From IMG/VR virus record IMGVR_UViG_3300031886_000009, positions 1-44,304 of that record: a DNA stretch of 44,304 nt. One strand, 5' to 3'. The DNA comes from a virus. Position numbers and translations under genes: made by a program. The notes beneath the pieces are model-generated. The model ran no database searches. It had not been told where the DNA came from and worked only from the letters and a program-made list of their open reading frames with translations. Of the stretch, positions 3,294 to 44,225 are shown in pieces (positions within the stretch are counted from its first letter, which is position 1; every line of letters starts with the position of its first letter).

Positions 3294-6200
3294 ATGACCC
3301 AACCTAGAGCATACGTTCAAACCACAAATTTTAACGATCATTCTACTGTATCTCCTAACGACCCCCATTCAGGAGCAAATTTAGATACAGAGTTTGTTGA
3401 GTTAAAACAGAACTTAGATGATTTAAACGCCAACATTGGTCTTCTCCAGCGAGATGACGGCAAGTTACTGAACACCGCAGTCCACAAAGATTCATTTGAT
3501 CAGGATGCATTAGCCTTTATTGGGGCATCAGGATCAGGATTCACGGCAAGGGGAGATTGGGTAACAGCCACAGATTATTTCGCAGGGGACTTAGTAACGA
3601 ACAATGCAGCAACTTATATAACAGTTGTAGCGGAACACGAATCTGGAGCCACTTTTGCTGGAGACAAGACAGCAGGGAAGTGGACATTAATAGCAAACTC
3701 AGCAATTGAGACTTCCAGTGCATCAGTAAATACCCACAGCGGTGATGGCGCAACTTACCAGTTTGATACCACCTACACTTATTCCACCCCCGGAGATATC
3801 CAAGTTTTTGTTGAGGGGGAAATACAACCTACCACTGCTTATTCAATCACCAATTTAGCTTCCAATTCCACAACCGGGAATAATATTACTTTTCTTACTG
3901 CCCCTCCGACAAATACAAACAATGTAATCATCTGGGGAGCAACAGTAGTAGCAGAGATTGCGAAGCAACAAGCATTAACTTACAAGGATTCTTCCAACAA
4001 CCACAAAGTAACATCAGAACGCTGGTCAGACAAGGTTGATGGTTCAGTAGTAGATGCAGAAACGTCTGTAGATTCCACCGAATATTCCTCAAAAGCGTAT
4101 GCAATTGGTGGAGTAGGAATTAACCAGACAGCCGGGAAGGGGTCTTCCAAGGAATGGGCTATAGGAACAGGACGGATTGATGATCAAAGTACAGGTGGAT
4201 ATTCTGCAAAGGAACACGCAACTGGGAATACAGTTGCAGAAGGATCATCTAAAGAATGGGCCACAAACGCTGGGACAGCAGAAGTTGATACCGGGGAGGG
4301 GTATTCTTCAAAGGCGTATGCACAAGATGATGCTAATGACATTGGTTCATCAAAGGATTGGGCAATGAAGGTTTCTGCCCAAGTTGCAAGCACTGATTAT
4401 TCCGCAAAAGAATATGCGGTAGGAACAACAGTAGCAGCCGGGTCTGCAAAGGATTGGGCGGTATTAGCAGAGGATTCTGTAGTAGACGGAGGTTCAGGGT
4501 ACTCAGCACTCCATTATGCTGCCAAAGCAGCAGCAGATTTAGTTCTTACGAATGCAGACGTTGTATCGACCAATGCAGATGTTGTCACTACTGCCGGGTA
4601 TGTAGATGCATTTGATGATAAGTATTTAGGTTCACACACAACTACTGCTAGGGAGACAGGAGGAAATGTAGGAAAGGATAATGATGGTGATGCCTTAGAT
4701 GACGGAGCATTATATTATGATACTACATTAGAAATAATGAAAGTGTGGGATGATACTGGTTCGGCATGGAAACGACTTACCCCAAGTTCTACTGAACAAG
4801 CCAATATTGATCTAGCAGTTGCGGAGCCATTAGCTACAAACATTGGGTTGGTAGCGGCAATAGACGATAAGGTGACTGATGTTGCAGCAATAGATGATAA
4901 GGTAGAAACTGTTGCTAATATAACAGCAGGAGATATTAGTATAGTCGCAAATATAACTACAGGGGATATATCGAAAGTAGCAGACATTACCACAGGTGAT
5001 ATCTCAAAAGTAGCTGCCATAGATACCGAAATAGGCCAATTAGCTGTCCTTGGCACAGCCGGGGCAGATATTTCAACTGTTGCGGCTATAGGAACAGCCG
5101 GGGTGGATGTATCGACTGTTGCAGGATTAGAGGATGAGGTTGCGTTGTTGGGTACTCCAGCAATGGCTACTGCCGTAACGGGACATATACCGAAGGTTGG
5201 GGCTAATACAGCAGAACTAACACGTTATGCTACTGAATACACAATATCTAATTCTGCCCCCGGATCGCCACAAGACGGACATTTATGGTCGGATACAAAC
5301 AGTAATGTATTAAAACATTATAATGGGGCAACAAGTAGTTGGGATCAGGTTTCTTCCACAGGAATTGCCAATGTTGCTGATGATCTTACTCCTCAACTTG
5401 GTGGTGATTTAGATACTCAAACTAATTCTATTAACTTAGGAGCATTATTAGAAAAATATCCAACAGGCTCCTCATACCCACTCACAAACTATAATCTCTC
5501 CAGTGGCATAGATAAACTTCTACTTTCAGAAACATTTATTGTTAATAGTGGAGGGGATTTAACAATAAATGGCGTTCTACGTTTAGGAAAGATTTTTGAA
5601 GAAGCCGTCCCAACTGGGGTAACCCTAACCAATACTGGGGGTGGAACTATAACAGGTTCTGGTACAATAACAAATGCGGCTCCTTTAGTTCAAAATTATC
5701 ACACAGATTTCCTTAATACCAAAAAGGGTAATCTTGATCTTGATGTTAATATAACTAATCGTGCTACAGGCACGTTTGGTTCAGGGATCAATTTATCTGG
5801 TTCTACAGGGACGTTTACTTCAAGTCATATTATTGGTAGTGATGTAACAGGCGTATTAGGGTCTGGCCTTACAGGCCAACCCACTATAGCAGGGACAAAT
5901 TTTACAGGAACAATTAATACCTCTGTTCAGGATAATATTACAAGAGTAGGAACAGTTACGTCAGGTGTCCTGGGGTCTGGGGTTACAGGAGGGGAAGCGT
6001 TAAATAAACTTGGATCAGTTACTCAAGGTGGTTTTTCTAGTGCCGTAACTGGATTAGGATATGATTACTTAGGTTCAGTAGGAAGGGCAACAAATAATAC
6101 CGCCAATTGGTCAGCAGGTCAAAATCCAAATAAAGGAGAAAAGACACATAAGATTCCCCTTACTTCAGGGATTGCAACAGCAAATGGGACATACCAGAAC

Positions 6201-6731
6201 TTTTTGATCTTTATTGAGGGTATTGATGCCTTTTACGATGGTCAGAGTGTAGGGTTCCAGTTTTATTGTTCCAATTTGGAAAACTCTGGTGAAAAACCTG
6301 TTTCTAGTAAATTGTCATATACTTATGATGCTAGAGCTGCTGATGGGTCAACATCTCATGGTTATAGTAACTCAGGGACTACAGTACCACTTCAGGCTTG
6401 GTCTTCTGGAGGAATGTCGGGTGGAAGTTATTCTACTTATGAGCATTATCGTGTACAGGTTTGGATGTATGTTACAGGTGTTACTTCAAGGCAACCTCCA
6501 AGAGTATCTTGGACTACTACTAGTAATTATGGTGGTAGAACGGCTGAATTTTATGGACAGCATTGTAATGGAATGGCAACCCTAGTAAATGGGGCTAGTA
6601 GTGCTACTTATGATAACGATTTAGATGCTATCTTAATATGTGCAACAGGGGGGCATGATGACAGGCGGTATCTAGCAGACCAATATACTTCTAATAGTGT
6701 AAAACTCTATGGATTAAGGGACGTGTATTAA
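3294..6731 (+). CDS. Tail fibre protein with T7-fibre-like N-terminus
   Basis: At 1145 aa this is the main fibre. Residues 1-60 (MTQPRAYVQTTNFNDHS onward) and the domain near residues 140-215 (YTYSTPGDIQVFVEGEIQPTT) resemble the N-terminal virion-attachment region of T7-type fibres. Residues about 260-410 are imperfect repeats of the type YSAKEYA-(n)-GSSKEWA. Residues about 505-620 are hydrophobic repeats (VAAIDD, ITTGDISKVA) typical of fibrous beta structure. The C-terminal 200 residues are non-repetitive and probably contact the receptor. The start is fixed by the conserved N-terminus even though no ribosome-binding site is visible. A chaperone and three accessory proteins follow. Confidence 0.85.
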   Translation: MTQPRAYVQTTNFNDHSTVSPNDPHSGANLDTEFVELKQNLDDLNANIGLLQRDDGKLLNTAVHKDSFDQDALAFIGASGSGFTARGDWVTATDYFAGDLVTNNAATYITVVAEHESGATFAGDKTAGKWTLIANSAIETSSASVNTHSGDGATYQFDTTYTYSTPGDIQVFVEGEIQPTTAYSITNLASNSTTGNNITFLTAPPTNTNNVIIWGATVVAEIAKQQALTYKDSSNNHKVTSERWSDKVDGSVVDAETSVDSTEYSSKAYAIGGVGINQTAGKGSSKEWAIGTGRIDDQSTGGYSAKEHATGNTVAEGSSKEWATNAGTAEVDTGEGYSSKAYAQDDANDIGSSKDWAMKVSAQVASTDYSAKEYAVGTTVAAGSAKDWAVLAEDSVVDGGSGYSALHYAAKAAADLVLTNADVVSTNADVVTTAGYVDAFDDKYLGSHTTTARETGGNVGKDNDGDALDDGALYYDTTLEIMKVWDDTGSAWKRLTPSSTEQANIDLAVAEPLATNIGLVAAIDDKVTDVAAIDDKVETVANITAGDISIVANITTGDISKVADITTGDISKVAAIDTEIGQLAVLGTAGADISTVAAIGTAGVDVSTVAGLEDEVALLGTPAMATAVTGHIPKVGANTAELTRYATEYTISNSAPGSPQDGHLWSDTNSNVLKHYNGATSSWDQVSSTGIANVADDLTPQLGGDLDTQTNSINLGALLEKYPTGSSYPLTNYNLSSGIDKLLLSETFIVNSGGDLTINGVLRLGKIFEEAVPTGVTLTNTGGGTITGSGTITNAAPLVQNYHTDFLNTKKGNLDLDVNITNRATGTFGSGINLSGSTGTFTSSHIIGSDVTGVLGSGLTGQPTIAGTNFTGTINTSVQDNITRVGTVTSGVLGSGVTGGEALNKLGSVTQGGFSSAVTGLGYDYLGSVGRATNNTANWSAGQNPNKGEKTHKIPLTSGIATANGTYQNFLIFIEGIDAFYDGQSVGFQFYCSNLENSGEKPVSSKLSYTYDARAADGSTSHGYSNSGTTVPLQAWSSGGMSGGSYSTYEHYRVQVWMYVTGVTSRQPPRVSWTTTSNYGGRTAEFYGQHCNGMATLVNGASSATYDNDLDAILICATGGHDDRRYLADQYTSNSVKLYGLRDVY

Positions 6732-26274: not shown

Positions 26275-29200
26275 ATGAAAGTACATACAGAGGAAGAAAA
26301 TGAGCAACTCGGTGTCCCTTTAAATTTAGGAGAGAGCCTCAGAAGTATTAGACCTGAAGTTGAAGACACTTCTTCCACCCCTTTAAATTTAGGGGAGAGC
26401 CTCCGAAGTATTAGCCCCATAGAGGAATCTGCCCCTGAAATTGTAGACACTCCCACTGCTCCCACCCCTACTACCCCTGACCATATCCAATTTCCAGGGA
26501 ATCCCTACGCTACCCAACCACCTGTTGAACCAAAAATAAGAGAATTTATTCCTGCGGTACAAAAAGGCTGGGCTGGATTACAGGGGAATTTAGGCCAAAT
26601 TTCTTTAGACCAGAGTGAGTGGAATAAAAAACATCCGTTTCTAGCCATGGCAAAATTTTTGCTTGGTCCTCACAGGGGAGAATGGGCAGGGTTTGGAATA
26701 GATGAAAGAAGATTTAAAGAGATTACAACTGAAGTAGAAAAGTGGAATCAGGAAGCCGAATCCAAGGGTGAACTGATGACTACAGATGACATCAATGGGT
26801 TGGGCGATTGGATAGATTATTTTCAGACTATGCTTGGCTCATCCGGGCCACAAATGGGAATTTCAATTCTTTCAGGTGGAACAATGACTCCACTGATGAT
26901 GACCGCAGAATTGAATAATAATTTGAAGGATATCGAGGGGTTGTCTCTGGATGACCGAATGGCACTTGCCAGTGGAGGAGGAGTTATTTCTGCTGCTCTG
27001 GAAAACTTGGGGTTAGGTTTTATAATTCGGGGTGTTCCCAAGGAAGTAGTAGCAAAAATAGGAATCAATAAACTTTCTACAATCCTTGAAAAATCTGTTC
27101 TGGTAAAGGCTGGAGCTAAAGTAACAGGCTCTGGATTAGCAGCTATGGGTATCGAGGGGACTACAGAAGGACTACAGGAAGCCGTTGCTATTATCTCAGA
27201 AAATTTAGGTGGAAGAGAATTCAAACCAGGAGAAATAACCTACCGCCTGAAACAAGCCGTTGCTGCCGGAATGACTGTAGGTGGTCCATTAGGTGGGGGA
27301 GCCTCCGCAGCAAGGCAATCTTTTGGGAGAAAAGATTCTGCTCCTGACGTTACTTCCACCACTCCTGTAGAGACACCTACTCTCAATTTAGCAAGTATTG
27401 GAAAACCAGATGGCCCGACAGAAACAGTATTTGGACAAGAAATTCCTCTGGTGGGTAAAGAACCAGCAGACACTTCAGATACTTCTCCTCTTCTGGAGCA
27501 TCCTTCATTATTGTCTAAAACAGAAGAACAACCTGTTGAAGATAAACCTTTCGTTATTGCAGAAAAACCTACAGTTGAAACAGTTAAAAAGGCTGTTCCT
27601 GAAGAGTCCTCAACTGAACAGTCCACACCTGTTCAAGAAGAGGCAGTCTCTCCAACTCAGAAGGAACAGCCCGTTACTAAAAAGAAGACTAAAAAGTCTA
27701 TTGAATTTGAATTAGCAAAGAAACAAGCAAAAGAAAAAGAGGCTAAAGCAAAGAGGGAAGAGGCTGAAGCAAAGAAGGAAGTTACCGAAGATGAAATAGA
27801 TTGGGATAGAGGGGGAATATTCCTTGATAAAAAAGAATATGTTAAGAAGAAAGATTTAGTTACAGAAGAAGTAGCTAGGAGTAAACCAGAAGGGGGAATT
27901 TACATAAATGAAGATGGAGAACAGGTAAGAGTTTATTCGCAAGAAGAACAGACAGAAATAGATAAACAAGAGGAGAAAGACAGGGCTTCAAGGGCAAAAA
28001 AGAATAGGGAGAAAAAAGAACAACAGAAACTGGAAGCTCAAAAATTAAAAGAAGAGGAAGCTAAGAAACCTATAACAGGATTTCAAGAAGTTGCAGATCA
28101 GGCTGTTACGGATATTAGTCAGGGCAAGAAAGCTCCCAGCAAAACCAAGAAGGAAAAAGCTGTGACAGAAGCTGTCATTAAAAAGGACAGGCATCTTACT
28201 GTTAAGGCTCCAGATTCCGATGGTATCGTTACAGAGTATGAAGGATTAGATGATTTTATAAATGATGAAGAAGCCATTGCCGAAGAGAAAATAAGTGAGA
28301 AGCGGTTTAAGGAAGAGGGTGGTGACCTGACAGAAGCAGAACAGAAAACGGCTGAAGCCAAAGCAAGGAAACGATATGCCCAAGCAGTGCTTGATAGAGA
28401 AGGTAAAAAGGAACCCACGCAAAAAGAGTTAGCCGATGAAATGGAGGCTGAAGCCAAGAAGGTTGTGGTTGAACCTGATGAACAGCTAGAAGAAGGACCA
28501 CTTTATACAGTAGAAAGTGAAGGGAAAACAGTTAAGAGGTTAACTCCAGAGACTACTAAAAAGGAAATAGAAAAAAGTTTTGGTAAAAGCACAGTAAGGA
28601 AACTCTTAAAGAATGATGGAGTTACAATTTTTGCAACCCAAGACGAGTATATTAAGGAAACGAATTTAGACCCGAAGAGCTATGAGGGGCAACCCGGCAA
28701 AGGGCGTAAAATTCAGGGATCGTTCCACCCTTCAACAGGGAAAGTTTATCTGATTGCAGAAAATATTAAAGAGGGTGAGGCAGGAGGAGTCTTGCTCCAT
28801 GAAGTTGGAGAACACGCAGCCTTGAATGAAATGGTTGGGAACGATGCATATGAATCCCTTTCCAAAAACTTTGAGGAGCTTCTAAAAGCGAAAGACCCTG
28901 TAGCCGTTGCTGCCTCTAAAAGAATTCCTAAAAATACCCCGGAATCTCACATTAAAAGCGAACAGTTGGCTTACCTAGTAGATGATATCCAGAGTAAAAT
29001 CACTGCTGGCGAAAAAGTATCCTCAAAAGCTAGGACTCTGTATAACAGAGTAATTAACCTGATCCGTAACTGGATAAGAAAACTCCCAGCGTACAGGAAG
29101 TTTGAAGGACGAGCTGCTTTAAAACGTCTCCAGAAAGGTGAACTCCTAACTCCTGAGAACATTGCTTCACTTGCAAGGGTTGCGGTAGACTTCCATACTG

Positions 29201-32200
29201 GAACTTATGATAGGGTAGATATTCTTCCTTCCCCTACAAAAAAAGAAAGAGCCAGACAGGCCAAGATTGGTAAAGAGTTACTGGAAGGAATAAAGGAAAG
29301 GAAACAAAGGAAAGAATATAAGGAGGGAACGAGGGTTACTTCTGCTAAAAAAGCTAGTGATTGGAAAAAAGCTAATAAAAGACCTGAAAGGAAAAAAGCT
29401 AGGATTGATTCCCCTGAACTTCAGCAAGCCGCAGAAGATTTAGAGGCTGGCGAAATTACATTTGAAGAATATCAGGAGAAGGTAGACAAAATTGCTCCAA
29501 TTGAAAAGTTCGATAAAGTCCCAGAGCCAGCGACTAATCTTGAAGTAGCAGGATCAATAAATGAAGGTCAGTTAAAGAAAGGTGCATTACTAAACGAAGA
29601 TGGTGTCATTGAAGATGGTGATACTGTAGAGAATCGATTGGATATACCTGCTTATGAAGACTATGATACTTGGGTTGCTACGATAACCCCTCATTTTAAG
29701 GGTTTAGATGTCCCCTCCTTTGCTACAATTTATGCTGGGACAGCGAAGCTGATAAACGTAACCTTTAAAACCCAACCTTCGGGATCATTAAAGATTGCAC
29801 AAGGTAAGGGTAAATACCCCCTTGCAACCATGAAAGGTGAATGGGTTAATTCAACTAACGAAGATTTAAAAGCTGAAGCTGATGATTTAATGAATGATCC
29901 TGATTGGGTTCAGGTGGGAATGAATCCAGAAAGGCAGTCATCTTTTTATGCAAAAGAAGATAAGGTTGTTGATGGAGTGGAAATAAAGAAAGGGACTCCA
30001 TTAGCTTCCGCTGAAGAAGTTATACAGGTAGGTGCTTTTGTCCTTGCTAAAAAACCAACAACTGGAGAAGCCCAAATTGTGAAATCAGCATCTAAAAAAA
30101 CAGGGGAGGAAATCCGATTCTCTGAAGAAGCTGAGACTGATAAACCCACTACAGGTATAAACATTAATGACTCCAAACAGCCGTTTACTAAGCAGATAAT
30201 ATCTGGTGAGAAGACTATTGAAACTCGCAATACAAATAGTCTGAAAGGTCAGGTGGGTAAAAGGATTGGTATCATCAGAACAGGCAAGGGTAAACCTCAA
30301 GTTGTTGCATATGCTACTGTGGGTGAGCCTATTATCTACAACACCAAGGAGGAGTTCAGGAAGGATCAGGACAAACACCTAGTTGAAGAAGGTTCAGAAT
30401 TCGATATCAAAGAAGATGGGATGAAGTATGGGTATCCACTGACTGATGTTAAAAAGGTTACTCCCTTCCCTGTAACTTCAAAGGGTATTGTTTCTAGGGA
30501 AATAGATCAGCCCCCAGTGAAGAAAGAAATTGAAGTTGACATGGAGGAAGTGATAGATGAATCACAATTCGCTGAAGTTAGAAAAAGGTTTAATGAAGCA
30601 AAAGTAAAGGATAAAAAAGCAAACCCTTTGGATACAGTAAAAGATGTTGCTGAAAGAGCAAAAAATATCTTCACTCGTTCCCACCCTGATCTTGATCCCG
30701 AAAAATTTGGACAGACCCTGGAATATATAAGGCAAGTCCAAGATGTCCCATCCTATGCACAGTGGCAGACCTTTCAGGATATCTATGAATTCATAGATAA
30801 GATGACAGATGCAGAACTGGAAATCTTTACATACAACATAATCCTGCCTGACATGATAAAGGATTTAAAGTCGGGAGTATTGAAGCCAATTGATGGTGAG
30901 TTACCTTTTGGTTATGAAAGTCTTGAACAAGTTGAACTGGATTTAAGGGGGTTTAAACAGAAAGCCCGGAAGACAAAAACTAAATCCGGCAAGACTGTAG
31001 AGAAGGCAGTAGCTGAACGTAATGAGGTGATGAATAATTTAAAGAATGAGTTGATTGATGAAGGGCTACTTTCGGAAGAACTCAGGAATGATGAAGCTTA
31101 TTATCATCACCAAGTCATCCAGTTTATGCAAATGGAGGACAAGTTTAAGGGTGACTTTAATGTGAATGCCCAGAAGGCTGGAATCCGTACAAAGAAACAG
31201 GGCTGGCAGAAAGCCCGAACTGGTAGTACAAAGGATTACAACACATCGTACCTTGATGCTGAGTTTGCTGTCATGTCAATGATGCGTAGCCAGCTTGAGA
31301 CTAAAAAACTGCTTGACAAAATTGAAGTAGAAGAAAATAAGTTTACTGAAATAGAGGCACAAGCAAAAGAAGAGGAAACAACAGTAGATGATTTGCTACG
31401 GAACTCTGAGGATTGGAAGGATTACACGATCTGGAAACCTAACCCTGACTCTGTCTGGTTCCATACTTATACCTTGAATGACAAGGTAGCACAGGAGGTC
31501 TTGGAACAGGTCGATAAAACTGACAAAAAGATAAAGGCAAATAAAGAAGCTCTTGAAAAAGGTGAGAAGCTTCCGAAGCGTACCCAGAAAGAAAGAACTG
31601 AGGGTGTTGAAGTTACAGAAGGTGATATAGGTGAGGGTATAATCAAGGGGAAGGACGAGGAGTGGATCATTCCTAAAGAGCTTGCCAAGACCCTGAACGA
31701 AAGCAGGAAGCCTAATGAAGGTATCGCTGCAGTTTCTGCATGGACTCTACAAGCTTGGAAGAAGTGGGTTCTTTTAAACCCTGAAAGGCTGATTAAATAC
31801 AACCTGAATAACTCTTCTGGTGACATTGATATTGCCTTTGCTTTTGATCCCATGATTTTAGCTAATGCAAAACAGGCTGCGAAAGACTTGTTCCATGACC
31901 TGAAGAAACATAAATTAAGTCCTGAATTACAGAAGGAACTTGCCAAGTGGAGGAAGAAGGGGGTAGTTGATTCAGGCTTTGCAATTACAGAGGTAGATGA
32001 TTTTTCCAGAATGTATGAGAAGCTCTTCGAGGGCAGACCCTCGAACATGAAAGATGAAACATGGGTGGAGGGAATAGAGGCTGTAGCAGATGATATAATA
32101 ACTGGGCCGAAGAAATTAGCAAAAGGTTACTGGAAAAATGCAAAAGACTACACGACACTGCGTGAGAATATTCTACGTCTGGCTGCTGTCAGATATTTTG

Positions 32201-33411
32201 AGAAAAAAATTACGGAGAATCCTAAAGATAAAATATATGCTGCTTCTAAATCATATGAGATAGACCAGATAAAGGACAATGATGACAGGGCTGCAAAACT
32301 AGCCAGAGAGTTAATCGGAGATTATGGGAACATCTCTCATGCAGGGCAGTTTATTCGTGAACACCTGATGCCGTTCTGGTCTTGGACAGAAATCAACACT
32401 CCTCGGTACATACGTCTGCTTGCCAACTCTGCCAAGGAAACGAGTGGTAGCAGAAGGGAGCTAACAAAAAGAATAGCGAAGACTATTCCCGGTAAAGCTG
32501 CACGAACTGGGGTAAATGTGGGGATAAAAGCTGGTGTCAGAATGGCACAGTTTGCAGCTATGACAACTATGGTTGCTATCTGGAACCATACATTATTCCC
32601 AGATGAGGAAGAGAAACTTTCAGAATTTGAAAGAGGTCAGTTGCACATCCTGCTACCTAACATCTGGCAGGATGGAGAAGTAGTCAGTCTGAGATTCTCC
32701 GGGGCGTTCTCGGATGCATTATCATGGTTGAGTCTGCACGATTCATTCTCTGATTATTCGCAAGGTAAGACAATTGGTGAACAATTCGAGGAAATGTGGA
32801 AGGCTCCTATTAATAAGCTTACCGGGGGGTTAACTCCTACTGCCAAGGTGTTTTACGAGACAGCTACAGGAGTGGCTACTTGGCCTGATATCTTTAATCC
32901 TCGACCTATTCGGGATCGCTGGAGACACATTGCAAAAGTATTTTCTGGAAGTATACCATATGATTGGTGGACAGGTAAACCAAGTCGAGGCTGGGGTAAA
33001 AACCTGTCCAAACTACTGCTTCAGTCCAGTGATCCGGGTGAAGCCGCATACTATAAAGTCCGTGGTTTTGTTAGAGATTTTAATGATAAAATGGGTGATG
33101 TAAGTTCTGGAGGGTTTACACCTACAGATAAAGGGAATGCTCTTTATTACTTCAAGCAGTCCTTGAGATATGGAGACATGGAAGCAGCCGAAAGATATCT
33201 TCGTTCTTATGTTGATTTAGCTGGTGGTCCAGCCAAAGCCAGTAAAGGATTAAAGGTTTCAATTAAGAGAGCCGCACCGATGGGTGGATTAAAAAAGAGA
33301 GACAGAGAAGCATGGCTAAAGAGCTTAACTCAAGCTGAATTAAAAACCTTACAAGTAGCCAGAGCTTGGTTTAAAAAAGTCTATGGCCGCACCCTTCGTT
33401 TTAAAAATTAA
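26275..33411 (+). CDS. Giant polyvalent-type virion protein (metallopeptidase motif, ASCH-like domain, LPD38-like end)
   Basis: 2378 aa, the largest gene. Residues 15-46 hold a duplicated PLNLGESLRSI. Residues about 185-345 are Gly/Ala-rich and helix-prone with GIEGTTEGLQEA (292-303), as in the N-terminus of other giant phage proteins. Residues about 465-620 are charged. HEVGEH (842-847) fits the HE-x-x-x-H zinc motif of polyvalent-protein metallopeptidases. The block VGMNPERQSSFY and then EEVIQVGAFVLAKKP (about 1212-1262) recurs in polyvalent proteins. Residues 1294-1397 (ININDSKQPFTKQIISGEKTIETR) look like an ASCH domain. GQFIREHLMPFWSW onward (about 2020-2165) looks like LPD38. Such proteins are thought to enter the cell with the DNA and act on host defences. 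The ribosome-binding site is distant (GGAG, 12 nt). Confidence 0.8.
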   Translation: MKVHTEEENEQLGVPLNLGESLRSIRPEVEDTSSTPLNLGESLRSISPIEESAPEIVDTPTAPTPTTPDHIQFPGNPYATQPPVEPKIREFIPAVQKGWAGLQGNLGQISLDQSEWNKKHPFLAMAKFLLGPHRGEWAGFGIDERRFKEITTEVEKWNQEAESKGELMTTDDINGLGDWIDYFQTMLGSSGPQMGISILSGGTMTPLMMTAELNNNLKDIEGLSLDDRMALASGGGVISAALENLGLGFIIRGVPKEVVAKIGINKLSTILEKSVLVKAGAKVTGSGLAAMGIEGTTEGLQEAVAIISENLGGREFKPGEITYRLKQAVAAGMTVGGPLGGGASAARQSFGRKDSAPDVTSTTPVETPTLNLASIGKPDGPTETVFGQEIPLVGKEPADTSDTSPLLEHPSLLSKTEEQPVEDKPFVIAEKPTVETVKKAVPEESSTEQSTPVQEEAVSPTQKEQPVTKKKTKKSIEFELAKKQAKEKEAKAKREEAEAKKEVTEDEIDWDRGGIFLDKKEYVKKKDLVTEEVARSKPEGGIYINEDGEQVRVYSQEEQTEIDKQEEKDRASRAKKNREKKEQQKLEAQKLKEEEAKKPITGFQEVADQAVTDISQGKKAPSKTKKEKAVTEAVIKKDRHLTVKAPDSDGIVTEYEGLDDFINDEEAIAEEKISEKRFKEEGGDLTEAEQKTAEAKARKRYAQAVLDREGKKEPTQKELADEMEAEAKKVVVEPDEQLEEGPLYTVESEGKTVKRLTPETTKKEIEKSFGKSTVRKLLKNDGVTIFATQDEYIKETNLDPKSYEGQPGKGRKIQGSFHPSTGKVYLIAENIKEGEAGGVLLHEVGEHAALNEMVGNDAYESLSKNFEELLKAKDPVAVAASKRIPKNTPESHIKSEQLAYLVDDIQSKITAGEKVSSKARTLYNRVINLIRNWIRKLPAYRKFEGRAALKRLQKGELLTPENIASLARVAVDFHTGTYDRVDILPSPTKKERARQAKIGKELLEGIKERKQRKEYKEGTRVTSAKKASDWKKANKRPERKKARIDSPELQQAAEDLEAGEITFEEYQEKVDKIAPIEKFDKVPEPATNLEVAGSINEGQLKKGALLNEDGVIEDGDTVENRLDIPAYEDYDTWVATITPHFKGLDVPSFATIYAGTAKLINVTFKTQPSGSLKIAQGKGKYPLATMKGEWVNSTNEDLKAEADDLMNDPDWVQVGMNPERQSSFYAKEDKVVDGVEIKKGTPLASAEEVIQVGAFVLAKKPTTGEAQIVKSASKKTGEEIRFSEEAETDKPTTGININDSKQPFTKQIISGEKTIETRNTNSLKGQVGKRIGIIRTGKGKPQVVAYATVGEPIIYNTKEEFRKDQDKHLVEEGSEFDIKEDGMKYGYPLTDVKKVTPFPVTSKGIVSREIDQPPVKKEIEVDMEEVIDESQFAEVRKRFNEAKVKDKKANPLDTVKDVAERAKNIFTRSHPDLDPEKFGQTLEYIRQVQDVPSYAQWQTFQDIYEFIDKMTDAELEIFTYNIILPDMIKDLKSGVLKPIDGELPFGYESLEQVELDLRGFKQKARKTKTKSGKTVEKAVAERNEVMNNLKNELIDEGLLSEELRNDEAYYHHQVIQFMQMEDKFKGDFNVNAQKAGIRTKKQGWQKARTGSTKDYNTSYLDAEFAVMSMMRSQLETKKLLDKIEVEENKFTEIEAQAKEEETTVDDLLRNSEDWKDYTIWKPNPDSVWFHTYTLNDKVAQEVLEQVDKTDKKIKANKEALEKGEKLPKRTQKERTEGVEVTEGDIGEGIIKGKDEEWIIPKELAKTLNESRKPNEGIAAVSAWTLQAWKKWVLLNPERLIKYNLNNSSGDIDIAFAFDPMILANAKQAAKDLFHDLKKHKLSPELQKELAKWRKKGVVDSGFAITEVDDFSRMYEKLFEGRPSNMKDETWVEGIEAVADDIITGPKKLAKGYWKNAKDYTTLRENILRLAAVRYFEKKITENPKDKIYAASKSYEIDQIKDNDDRAAKLARELIGDYGNISHAGQFIREHLMPFWSWTEINTPRYIRLLANSAKETSGSRRELTKRIAKTIPGKAARTGVNVGIKAGVRMAQFAAMTTMVAIWNHTLFPDEEEKLSEFERGQLHILLPNIWQDGEVVSLRFSGAFSDALSWLSLHDSFSDYSQGKTIGEQFEEMWKAPINKLTGGLTPTAKVFYETATGVATWPDIFNPRPIRDRWRHIAKVFSGSIPYDWWTGKPSRGWGKNLSKLLLQSSDPGEAAYYKVRGFVRDFNDKMGDVSSGGFTPTDKGNALYYFKQSLRYGDMEAAERYLRSYVDLAGGPAKASKGLKVSIKRAAPMGGLKKRDREAWLKSLTQAELKTLQVARAWFKKVYGRTLRFKN

Positions 33412-42840: not shown

Positions 42841-44067
42841 CTATCTCAGGCCGGAATAGTTCAGGACAGGATCATTGTACATATCGAACTGTGCCTGTTC
42901 CTTATTCCTCATCCTCGCATAATCACCCCTAGCCTCATCGATGGCACTCTGATTATGATCGATTCCAGGGGATTTCATAACTTCCAAAATTCTCTCAGCC
43001 AGAGCCTTGAAAACTGGAACTGTGATTGCGTTACCACACATCTTATACATCTGTGTATTCGAGATGCCAAGCTCAACTGCTTTGTGGTATGCATCATCGG
43101 GGAACCCCTGAAGCCGGAAGCATTCGAGGGGAGTTAATCGCCTAACCTTCGCTCCATCCACTAAAGTATTCTCAATGGTTGGGGAGGTGGTCAGCGTTCC
43201 ACAGAGTCCATCTTTTCGAGGAGCAAGTTGCTTACCCCTTCGAGGAGAGTGATCTTTGCCTGTGGCCTTCTTAATCTCTCGCCTAATCCGCTTTGCTTCT
43301 TCAGTTCTAACCTCAGTCAGAATGAATGGCTGTCGGTTTCCACCTTGCATGGTATTGAGAGTCGGAGAAAGGCCGTCAGGATCATAAACACGATTATTAG
43401 AATGTGTGGGCTTGTTGATTTGAATCAACTGCCTACGCCCCTTCAGGGTTGTGTTCGTACCCTTCCAATAATTTGCATCTAAACAATATGACAGATGCTC
43501 CCCTGCTCTGCGAGTATCCGTTTGGTTATCCGCTCCGAGAGGAAAAATTGTTCCGGTGGGTTGGGTTCGAGGATGTCTTGCAACAAGATACCATCTGACC
43601 CTGTGTTGGGGGACTCCGTAATCCTTAGAGTTAATGAGACCCCATTCAGTGTGATAGCCCAATTGCCCCAACGTATCGATGATAACTGAGAGAGTCTGCC
43701 CTTTGTCGTGACTGAGTAACCCTCGGACGTTTTCCAAGACCACAACTGAAGGCTGTTTAGCTTTGATAATTCTGGCAACATCAAAGAAAAGTGTGCCTCT
43801 AGTGCGGTCACTAAATCCCTTCCGAAGTCCTGCGACTGAGAAGCTCTGGCAGGGGATTCCGGCAATGAGCCAAGAGTGGCAAGCAATGCTTTCTGCATCT
43901 GTTGTTGTGATGTCTTCATGGTTGTATACTCTCTCTAAATAGTTATCTGCAAAAAGGTTAGCGTGTGAGTCTATCTCAAACGCCCCTACACACTGGAAGC
44001 CCCCAATCTGTTCGAGGGCTTTGTCTGCTCCTCCCATTCCTCGGAAGGCTGAAACGTAACGTATCAT
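42841..44067 (-). CDS. DNA (cytosine-5) methyltransferase
   Basis: 408 aa from ATG 44067. AdoMet loop SAFRGMGGADKA (6-17), catalytic loop IPCQSFS (71-77, Cys73), LENVRG (111-116), and GVPQHRVRWY (151-160, motif QxRxR) define the C5-cytosine class. A target-recognition region lies near 170-330, and CGNAITVPVFKAL near residue 360 is the last conserved motif. It probably shields phage DNA from host restriction. There is no cognate nuclease beside it, so it looks like an orphan. The start overlaps the stop of the membrane-protein gene as ATGA. An upstream in-frame ATG at 44160 lies inside that gene and is not used. Confidence 0.95.
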   Translation of the reverse strand: MIRYVSAFRGMGGADKALEQIGGFQCVGAFEIDSHANLFADNYLERVYNHEDITTTDAESIACHSWLIAGIPCQSFSVAGLRKGFSDRTRGTLFFDVARIIKAKQPSVVVLENVRGLLSHDKGQTLSVIIDTLGQLGYHTEWGLINSKDYGVPQHRVRWYLVARHPRTQPTGTIFPLGADNQTDTRRAGEHLSYCLDANYWKGTNTTLKGRRQLIQINKPTHSNNRVYDPDGLSPTLNTMQGGNRQPFILTEVRTEEAKRIRREIKKATGKDHSPRRGKQLAPRKDGLCGTLTTSPTIENTLVDGAKVRRLTPLECFRLQGFPDDAYHKAVELGISNTQMYKMCGNAITVPVFKALAERILEVMKSPGIDHNQSAIDEARGDYARMRNKEQAQFDMYNDPVLNYSGLR

Positions 44068-44225
44068 ATGACCCCCACATAAATTAATACACAGGATATG
44101 ATTGCTACCGAAAAAGCAAAGTAATGGAGCCAACGCAACCAAGTGGCTGTCTGATCCCAATCCTTTTTAGCTAATCGAAGTTCTATTCTGGAACCCTCGT
44201 AAGCTCTTTGAATCCACGTTCTCAT
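44064..44225 (-). CDS. One-helix membrane protein upstream of the methyltransferase (53 aa)
   Basis: The first 28 residues are charged (RTWIQRAYEGSRIELRLAKK), and residues 29-53 are hydrophobic and aromatic (WLRWLHYFAFSVAIISCVLIYVGVI), predicting one transmembrane helix near the C-terminus. It starts at ATG 44225 just after AAAAGGTGAAAT, and its stop overlaps the methyltransferase start (ATGA), so the two are coupled. The joint of the circular map cuts through it. Function is unknown; its size would allow a holin-like, exclusion or anchoring role. Confidence 0.65.
   Translation of the reverse strand: MRTWIQRAYEGSRIELRLAKKDWDQTATWLRWLHYFAFSVAIISCVLIYVGVI

Follow-up and report, generated by a model that had tools for sequence, protein, structure and literature searches.

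An ASCH domain in a giant phage protein and its capsid-tagged relatives: probable cargo delivered with phage DNA

The window analysed here, a viral contig of 44,304 nucleotides (IMG/VR record IMGVR_UViG_3300031886_000009), encodes a giant protein, P0001, that carries an ASCH domain, and the family of this domain is probably cargo delivered into the bacterium together with phage DNA. We infer packaging and injection from capsid-type tags on members of the family in T4-like phages, from nearby ADP-ribosyltransferase (ART) genes, and from fusions of the domain to ART-PolyVal and portal domains. A first-pass annotation of the same DNA had proposed delivery at the moment of entry, which on these grounds appears probable.

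P0001 is a single unbroken ORF of 2378 amino acids (26275..33411, plus strand; ORF calling and translation), as had been annotated, and is encoded wholly or partly in six independent viral contigs (L001-L006) at identities of 86-100%. Its gene ends a run of structural genes which, according to PHROG and Pfam matches, comprises a small terminase (phrog_51), a large terminase (phrog_38), a portal (phrog_12082), a major head protein (phrog_9953) and an SU10-type adaptor (PF24175, above the cut-off). Downstream lie RecE-like and Sak4-like recombination genes, a helicase and a primase. In short-tailed phages the genes of ejection proteins sit at the end of the structural block, as the P0001 gene does. 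The description of P0001 as virion-type is suggested by this gene position and by its relatives. Elsewhere in the window, an ORF of 1145 aa (3294-6731) separates the small terminase gene from the large one and has no Pfam or PHROG match; the record ends with a minus-strand DNA methyltransferase gene at 42841-44160 (phrog_116, E 9e-90). An NCBIfam search found nothing, and a promoter and terminator scan stayed near chance level.

Table 1. Regions and motifs of P0001 with their positions in the window.
Feature	Residues	Positions	Strand	Evidence or remark
N-terminal region	1-400	26275..27474	+	about 65% identity to L004 over residues 2-480
Lys/Glu-rich linker	401-740	27475..28494	+	fastest-changing region; 53% amino acid identity to L004, several deletions
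Peptidase region	814-942	28714..29100	+	weak match to phrog_873, a head/packaging family (E 5.1e-8)
HEVGEH, zincin-type HEXXXH motif	842-847	28798..28815	+	kept in L004
PF25735-related module, RLDIPAYEDYDTWV...VGMNP.RHSYFYD...EVIQVG	1045-1285	29407..30129	+	Pfam, relatives
ASCH domain	1294-1405	30154..30489	+	AlphaFold, Foldseek, Pfam, dN/dS
GEKTIETR, ASCH signature GxKxxExR	1311-1318	30205..30228	+	conserved in relatives
C-terminal region	1801-2378	31675..33408	+	amino acid identity 82-92% in relatives; part was annotated as LPD38 in the first pass

P0001 displays the traits of a polyvalent-type protein, the class to which it had been assigned: it is very large, it combines several unrelated modules, its content varies among relatives, and its modules are common to otherwise different giants (Table 1). 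The relatives L004 and L005, for instance, are without the module at 1045-1285, yet the ASCH domain is present. With the polyvalent proteins of Iyer et al. 2017 (PMC5512222) it shares the large multidomain build, the zincin-type motif and the virion context, as well as ART-PolyVal in relatives; it differs in that the text of that paper is without ASCH and in that LPD38 was not detected in P0001. The LPD38 assignment of the first pass (PF18857) was dropped, as the profile has no match in P0001 or anywhere in the record at E<=10; none above the cut-off was found in 15 related records either. A Pfam scan of the N-terminal region gave no match.

The annotated metallopeptidase motif is borne out by the HEVGEH sequence, and HEXXXH is a variant form among polyvalent metallopeptidases (PMC5512222). 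On motif and profile match, we describe this region as a putative zincin-like metallopeptidase. Its tblastn matches include a DarB-like antirestriction protein (OR791114.1), and a search for further relatives returned only near-identical copies of the window's own region. An HExxH or HExxxH motif is found in six other giants (L031, L032, L034, L056, L064 and L073). The module at 1045-1285 was modelled with a pLDDT of 79.7 and had no match in a fold search of the PDB. The module turns up again in phage giants, one of them the ART-PolyVal protein of L008.

On the predicted structure, residues 1294-1405 are a genuine ASCH (PUA-like β-barrel) domain, in agreement with the earlier proposal of an ASCH-like domain. 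The proposed start at residue 1294 holds, while the end lies at about 1405 instead of 1397. The AlphaFold model has a pLDDT of 93.8, and a Foldseek comparison with the PDB places the Zymomonas mobilis protein ZmASCH on top (5y6b/5guq, TM 0.76, E 4e-5), with TTHA0113, AF2351 and CXorf40A/EOLA1 among the other leading matches and 12 PDB matches at E<=0.001. In sequence searches the Pfam ASCH profile (PF04266) gives E 0.84 on the whole protein; run on the domain by itself it reaches 21.0 bits (E 5.5e-4), just short of the 21.2 cut-off, and 13 of the 14 alignment members match it at E<=1. The signature motif of ASCH domains is GxKxxExR (PMC6803910). In 42 relatives the K, E, T and R of the motif are invariant and the G is present in more than 90%; altogether, 11 columns of the domain are invariant (N3, N5, I15, K20, E23, T24, R25, T43, Y62, F68 and H75, in domain numbering).

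The ASCH domain is also under strong constraint. Between the window and L003 it is 98% identical, with dN/dS of 0.013/0.16 (about 0.08), and between the window and L004 it is 96% identical, with 0.015/0.34 (about 0.04). No other P0001 region compared in these relatives has a dN/dS as low, and both the linker and the peptidase region diverge far more.

Its nearest structures raise the question of an enzymatic function. We consider it unlikely that the domain acts after entry as a ribonuclease or as a hydrolase of modified nucleosides, damaging host RNA or erasing a signal, even though its closest structural neighbours include an ssRNA nuclease, ZmASCH, and, more weakly, the N4-acetylcytidine (ac4C) amidohydrolase YqfB of E. 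coli. ZmASCH shares the GxKxxExR motif, and its Thr49 corresponds to the invariant Thr43 of the domain. The identity is about 21%, however, and the functionally important Tyr47 of ZmASCH, which is needed for full RNA cleavage, aligns with Ile or Val. As for the other residues of a ZmASCH-type ssRNase, the position of Lys53 is often Lys but is flanked by Pro and shifted in the window, and Ser128 is unaligned. YqfB belongs to the same superfamily and is a weak fold match (TM 0.50-0.58). Comparing the motifs by eye with those in PMC6972931, we found counterparts of its Lys21, of Arg26 and probably of His70, the first two being the invariant Lys and Arg of the motif and the third a His that is likewise invariant, whereas the nucleophile Thr24 is replaced by the invariant Glu23 and Glu74 has no conserved equivalent. 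Both assignments were rejected; because these key residues are not conserved, the window family cannot be credited with either of the known ASCH enzyme activities. In sequence-profile comparison, the best match among PDB chains is human/mouse EOLA1 (5y7d, 6kir; E 0.12), which has the same KTxETR motif but is eukaryotic and of unsettled function.

How widespread is the domain? Profile-guided scans of IMG/VR returned 67 viral loci with identities of 44-100%, and all phages of the family considered here are uncultivated contigs. By tblastn, 50,697 records of cultured phages and a plasmid collection yielded no relative of the ASCH domain, nor did a first scan of cellular genomes. A second scan of cellular genomes gave two phage-type matches, a phage-type giant of 2737 aa encoded in a Verrucomicrobia MAG (L107) and a standalone ASCH copy in a Planctomycetaceae MAG (L108), together with distant cellular ASCH proteins. 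The latter are short proteins of 26-36% identity in bacterial MAGs, mostly of Bdellovibrio type (L109-L114, L116, L117, L120 and L121). They have the core G[IL][NH][IV]Q...KTIETR...H.V in common with the window family and differ from it in being standalone and apparently cellular, and in having GINIQ and TPG(K) in place of GININD and RTGKG of the phage family.

The ORFs that bear the domain range from 125 to 3689 aa. Those of at least 500 aa fall into ten groups which have fewer than 400 aa in common outside ASCH, smaller modules being common to some of them. An ASCH domain inside a polyvalent protein, which the first-pass annotation had called unusual, is therefore a recurrent arrangement. 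ART-PolyVal stands in the same ORF as ASCH in L031, L034 and L069, a PF25735-type module in the window protein and in L073, L017, L047 and L071; further companion domains of the ASCH giants are DUF5824 and DUF7178. In BFVD, the predicted structures closest to the domain belong to an ART-PolyVal-like protein, a 143-aa protein and a 503-aa “ASCH domain containing protein”, with a partial match in an LT_GEWL protein; all are from uncultured phages. When the tips of an ASCH tree are labelled as giant or standalone, at least six changes between the two states are required (6-9 in bootstraps; two are forced by well-supported branches).

Two features of the giant ORFs may be recorded here. Positions 2766-8225 of L071 hold one ORF of 1820 aa, open at the 3' end, in which a full phage portal domain is joined to a polyvalent-type region with ASCH. 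Recurring Cys-containing spacers of the DCGRDxDGKFGxGNxC and SRAFCPTGxGGGxDNSC type flank modules of the giant ORFs in L047, L060, L061, L069 and L071.

The T4 capsid-targeting sequence is MKTYQEFIAE. Several standalone ASCH proteins start with peptides of this kind (written with a slash after the closing Glu): MLSFINFITE/E in G007, MNFKLWLKE/N in G009, MTFKEYFLE/S in G003 and G004, MVTFKEYILE/S in G001, MFTFKEFFLE/S in G008 and MKNKDQIILE/N in G002. G001-G004 look like related phages, and G003 and G004 are near-identical. The N-terminal pattern M..F..[FW][IL].E, ASCH included, occurs in 8 of the 211 proteins of G009 (0.35 expected, p 5e-9) and in 8 of the 194 proteins of G007 (0.24 expected, p 3e-10), and the G002 tag M.xKDQ..LE (M.xKDQIILENLY) in 6 of 78 proteins, including ASCH and the adjacent ART-like protein (p 2.5e-12; 0 of 6419 internal positions); expectations were derived from internal protein positions, and the p values are descriptive because the patterns were defined after inspecting the sequences. 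A gp21-type prohead protease and a gp23 head protein are encoded in G001, G006, G007, G008 and G009 and were not seen in the records of G002-G004. Among the other tagged proteins, PHROG and Pfam scans recognised only PF25735, a weak GP88 match and two weak or uninformative PHROG matches.

In several standalone groups (e.g. L019-L025, L035 and L042), a recognisable capsid tag is absent, and therefore the delivery inference does not cover every ASCH member. Such tagless proteins could work inside the cell once expressed, in line with an alternative in which ASCH is not delivered at all but is a passenger with a structural or regulatory part to play in the infected cell while virions are being assembled. 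As a general account of the family this appears quite improbable, since the portal and polyvalent fusions, the capsid-type tags, the strong constraint and the repeated re-fusion all point to virion cargo.

The neighbours of the standalone ASCH genes are consistent with virion cargo. An ART-PolyVal-like match lies within 3 kb of ASCH in four phages (G001, G002, G003/G004 and G009), the one in G009 being above the Pfam cut-off and those in G001-G004 below it. In G002 the ART-like gene adjoins ASCH and both bear the same tag (MKNKDQIMLENLY); the ART-like gene of G001 has a KDQ-type tag, and that of G003 begins with MTFKEYFFKE, compared with MTFKEYFLES on ASCH. The ART ORF of G009 has no tag at its N-terminus. 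In G007 the PF25735-type module is encoded by a tagged gene of its own, 2 kb away from ASCH (hhalign probability 97%; PF25735 E 8e-10), and in G002 it also has its own gene, at a distance of 0.7 kb. Because the neighbours of ASCH are also its fusion partners, the same cargo set of ASCH, ART and PF25735-type module occurs either fused or separate.

In T4, a tag of about 10 residues takes internal proteins into the prohead, where the head protease removes it (PMC7697877), and these internal proteins act against restriction as diverse defence proteins of which the tag alone is conserved (PMC3012670). The tagged standalone ASCH proteins resemble T4 IPI-III and Alt in their N-terminal peptides of about 10 residues ending in [ILF]xE, in the gp21-type protease encoded in several of their genomes and in their ART neighbours. 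They differ in that the cargo is ASCH; moreover, the window phage is not T4-like and has its ASCH inside a giant protein.

We regard it as fairly likely that P0001 belongs to the ejection-type polyvalent proteins and that its ASCH cargo enters with the DNA, is perhaps cut free, binds a ligand and serves early counter-defence or takeover. P0001 would be packaged in the virion and enter the cell along with the DNA, as tags, fusions and gene position suggest, and, to judge by its motif, the putative zincin-type peptidase domain may separate the modules. The freed ASCH domain may then bind a nucleotide or nucleic-acid ligand, of the sort its fold suggests, through the invariant K-x-x-E-T-R pocket, to which His75 and Tyr94 (domain numbering) also belong, and would serve early counter-defence or host takeover beside modules such as the ADP-ribosyltransferases of related phages. 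In T4-like phages, ASCH, an ART and the PF25735-like module would each be delivered as a small protein of its own under a capsid-targeting-type tag.

The ligand could also be a modified base of the incoming phage DNA, or of host RNA, with ASCH acting as a reader that shields or tethers it, for example against modification-dependent restriction. ASCH/EVE/YTH-type folds are described as readers of modified bases (PMC7641849), T4 internal proteins block restriction enzymes (PMC3012670), and the window has a DNA methyltransferase gene; no aromatic cage was identified, however, and the conserved residues are strongly polar, which leaves such a reader doubtful. We also tentatively propose, short of an even chance, that phages own a widely shared toolkit dedicated to entry, made up of ASCH, ART and PF25735-type modules in two interchangeable formats, polyvalent-fused or capsid-tagged. 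On this view the ASCH module would blunt early defence by binding or processing a nucleotide or modified base, and would represent a new class among the injected effectors. The ASCH fold may have a part on the host side of the conflict as well, as suggested by BapA, reported in a 2026 preprint (PMC13160076) as a DNA glycosylase active against phages and modelled with an ASCH-type structure.

In Burkholderia phage CSP3, a moron gene encoding ASCH is reported to lie between terminase genes. ASCH is absent from the texts of the founding polyvalent-protein paper, of a survey of phage NAD and ADP-ribose functions and of a jumbo phage survey. A literature search combining polyvalent and ASCH terms found one paper, which mentions ASCH in another context; as most subscription literature lay outside the search, the priority of the phage-cargo finding is uncertain.

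For further study, the small tagged ASCH proteins can replace the 2378-aa protein, since at 130-140 aa they are easy to express, package and assay. With this family, a domain with a nucleotide pocket joins the probable entry effectors of phages, and polyvalent proteins become linked, through common cargo, to T4-style internal head proteins, a system usually discussed separately. The search rule used here, one domain either fused or capsid-tagged, could reveal other injected effectors.

Clusters of tagged genes were also observed in other records. In L139 (5718-12052; G012), a cluster of eight proteins, among them ASCH, has the N-terminal sequence M[TS]AFDxAWxLLK in common (8 of 105 proteins, compared with 7 of 23,697 internal positions), a candidate targeting tag. 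Positions 492-5328 of L014 hold a cluster of tagged small genes (MKNKDQIILENLY), most of them without known function, which resembles an internal-head-protein cassette.
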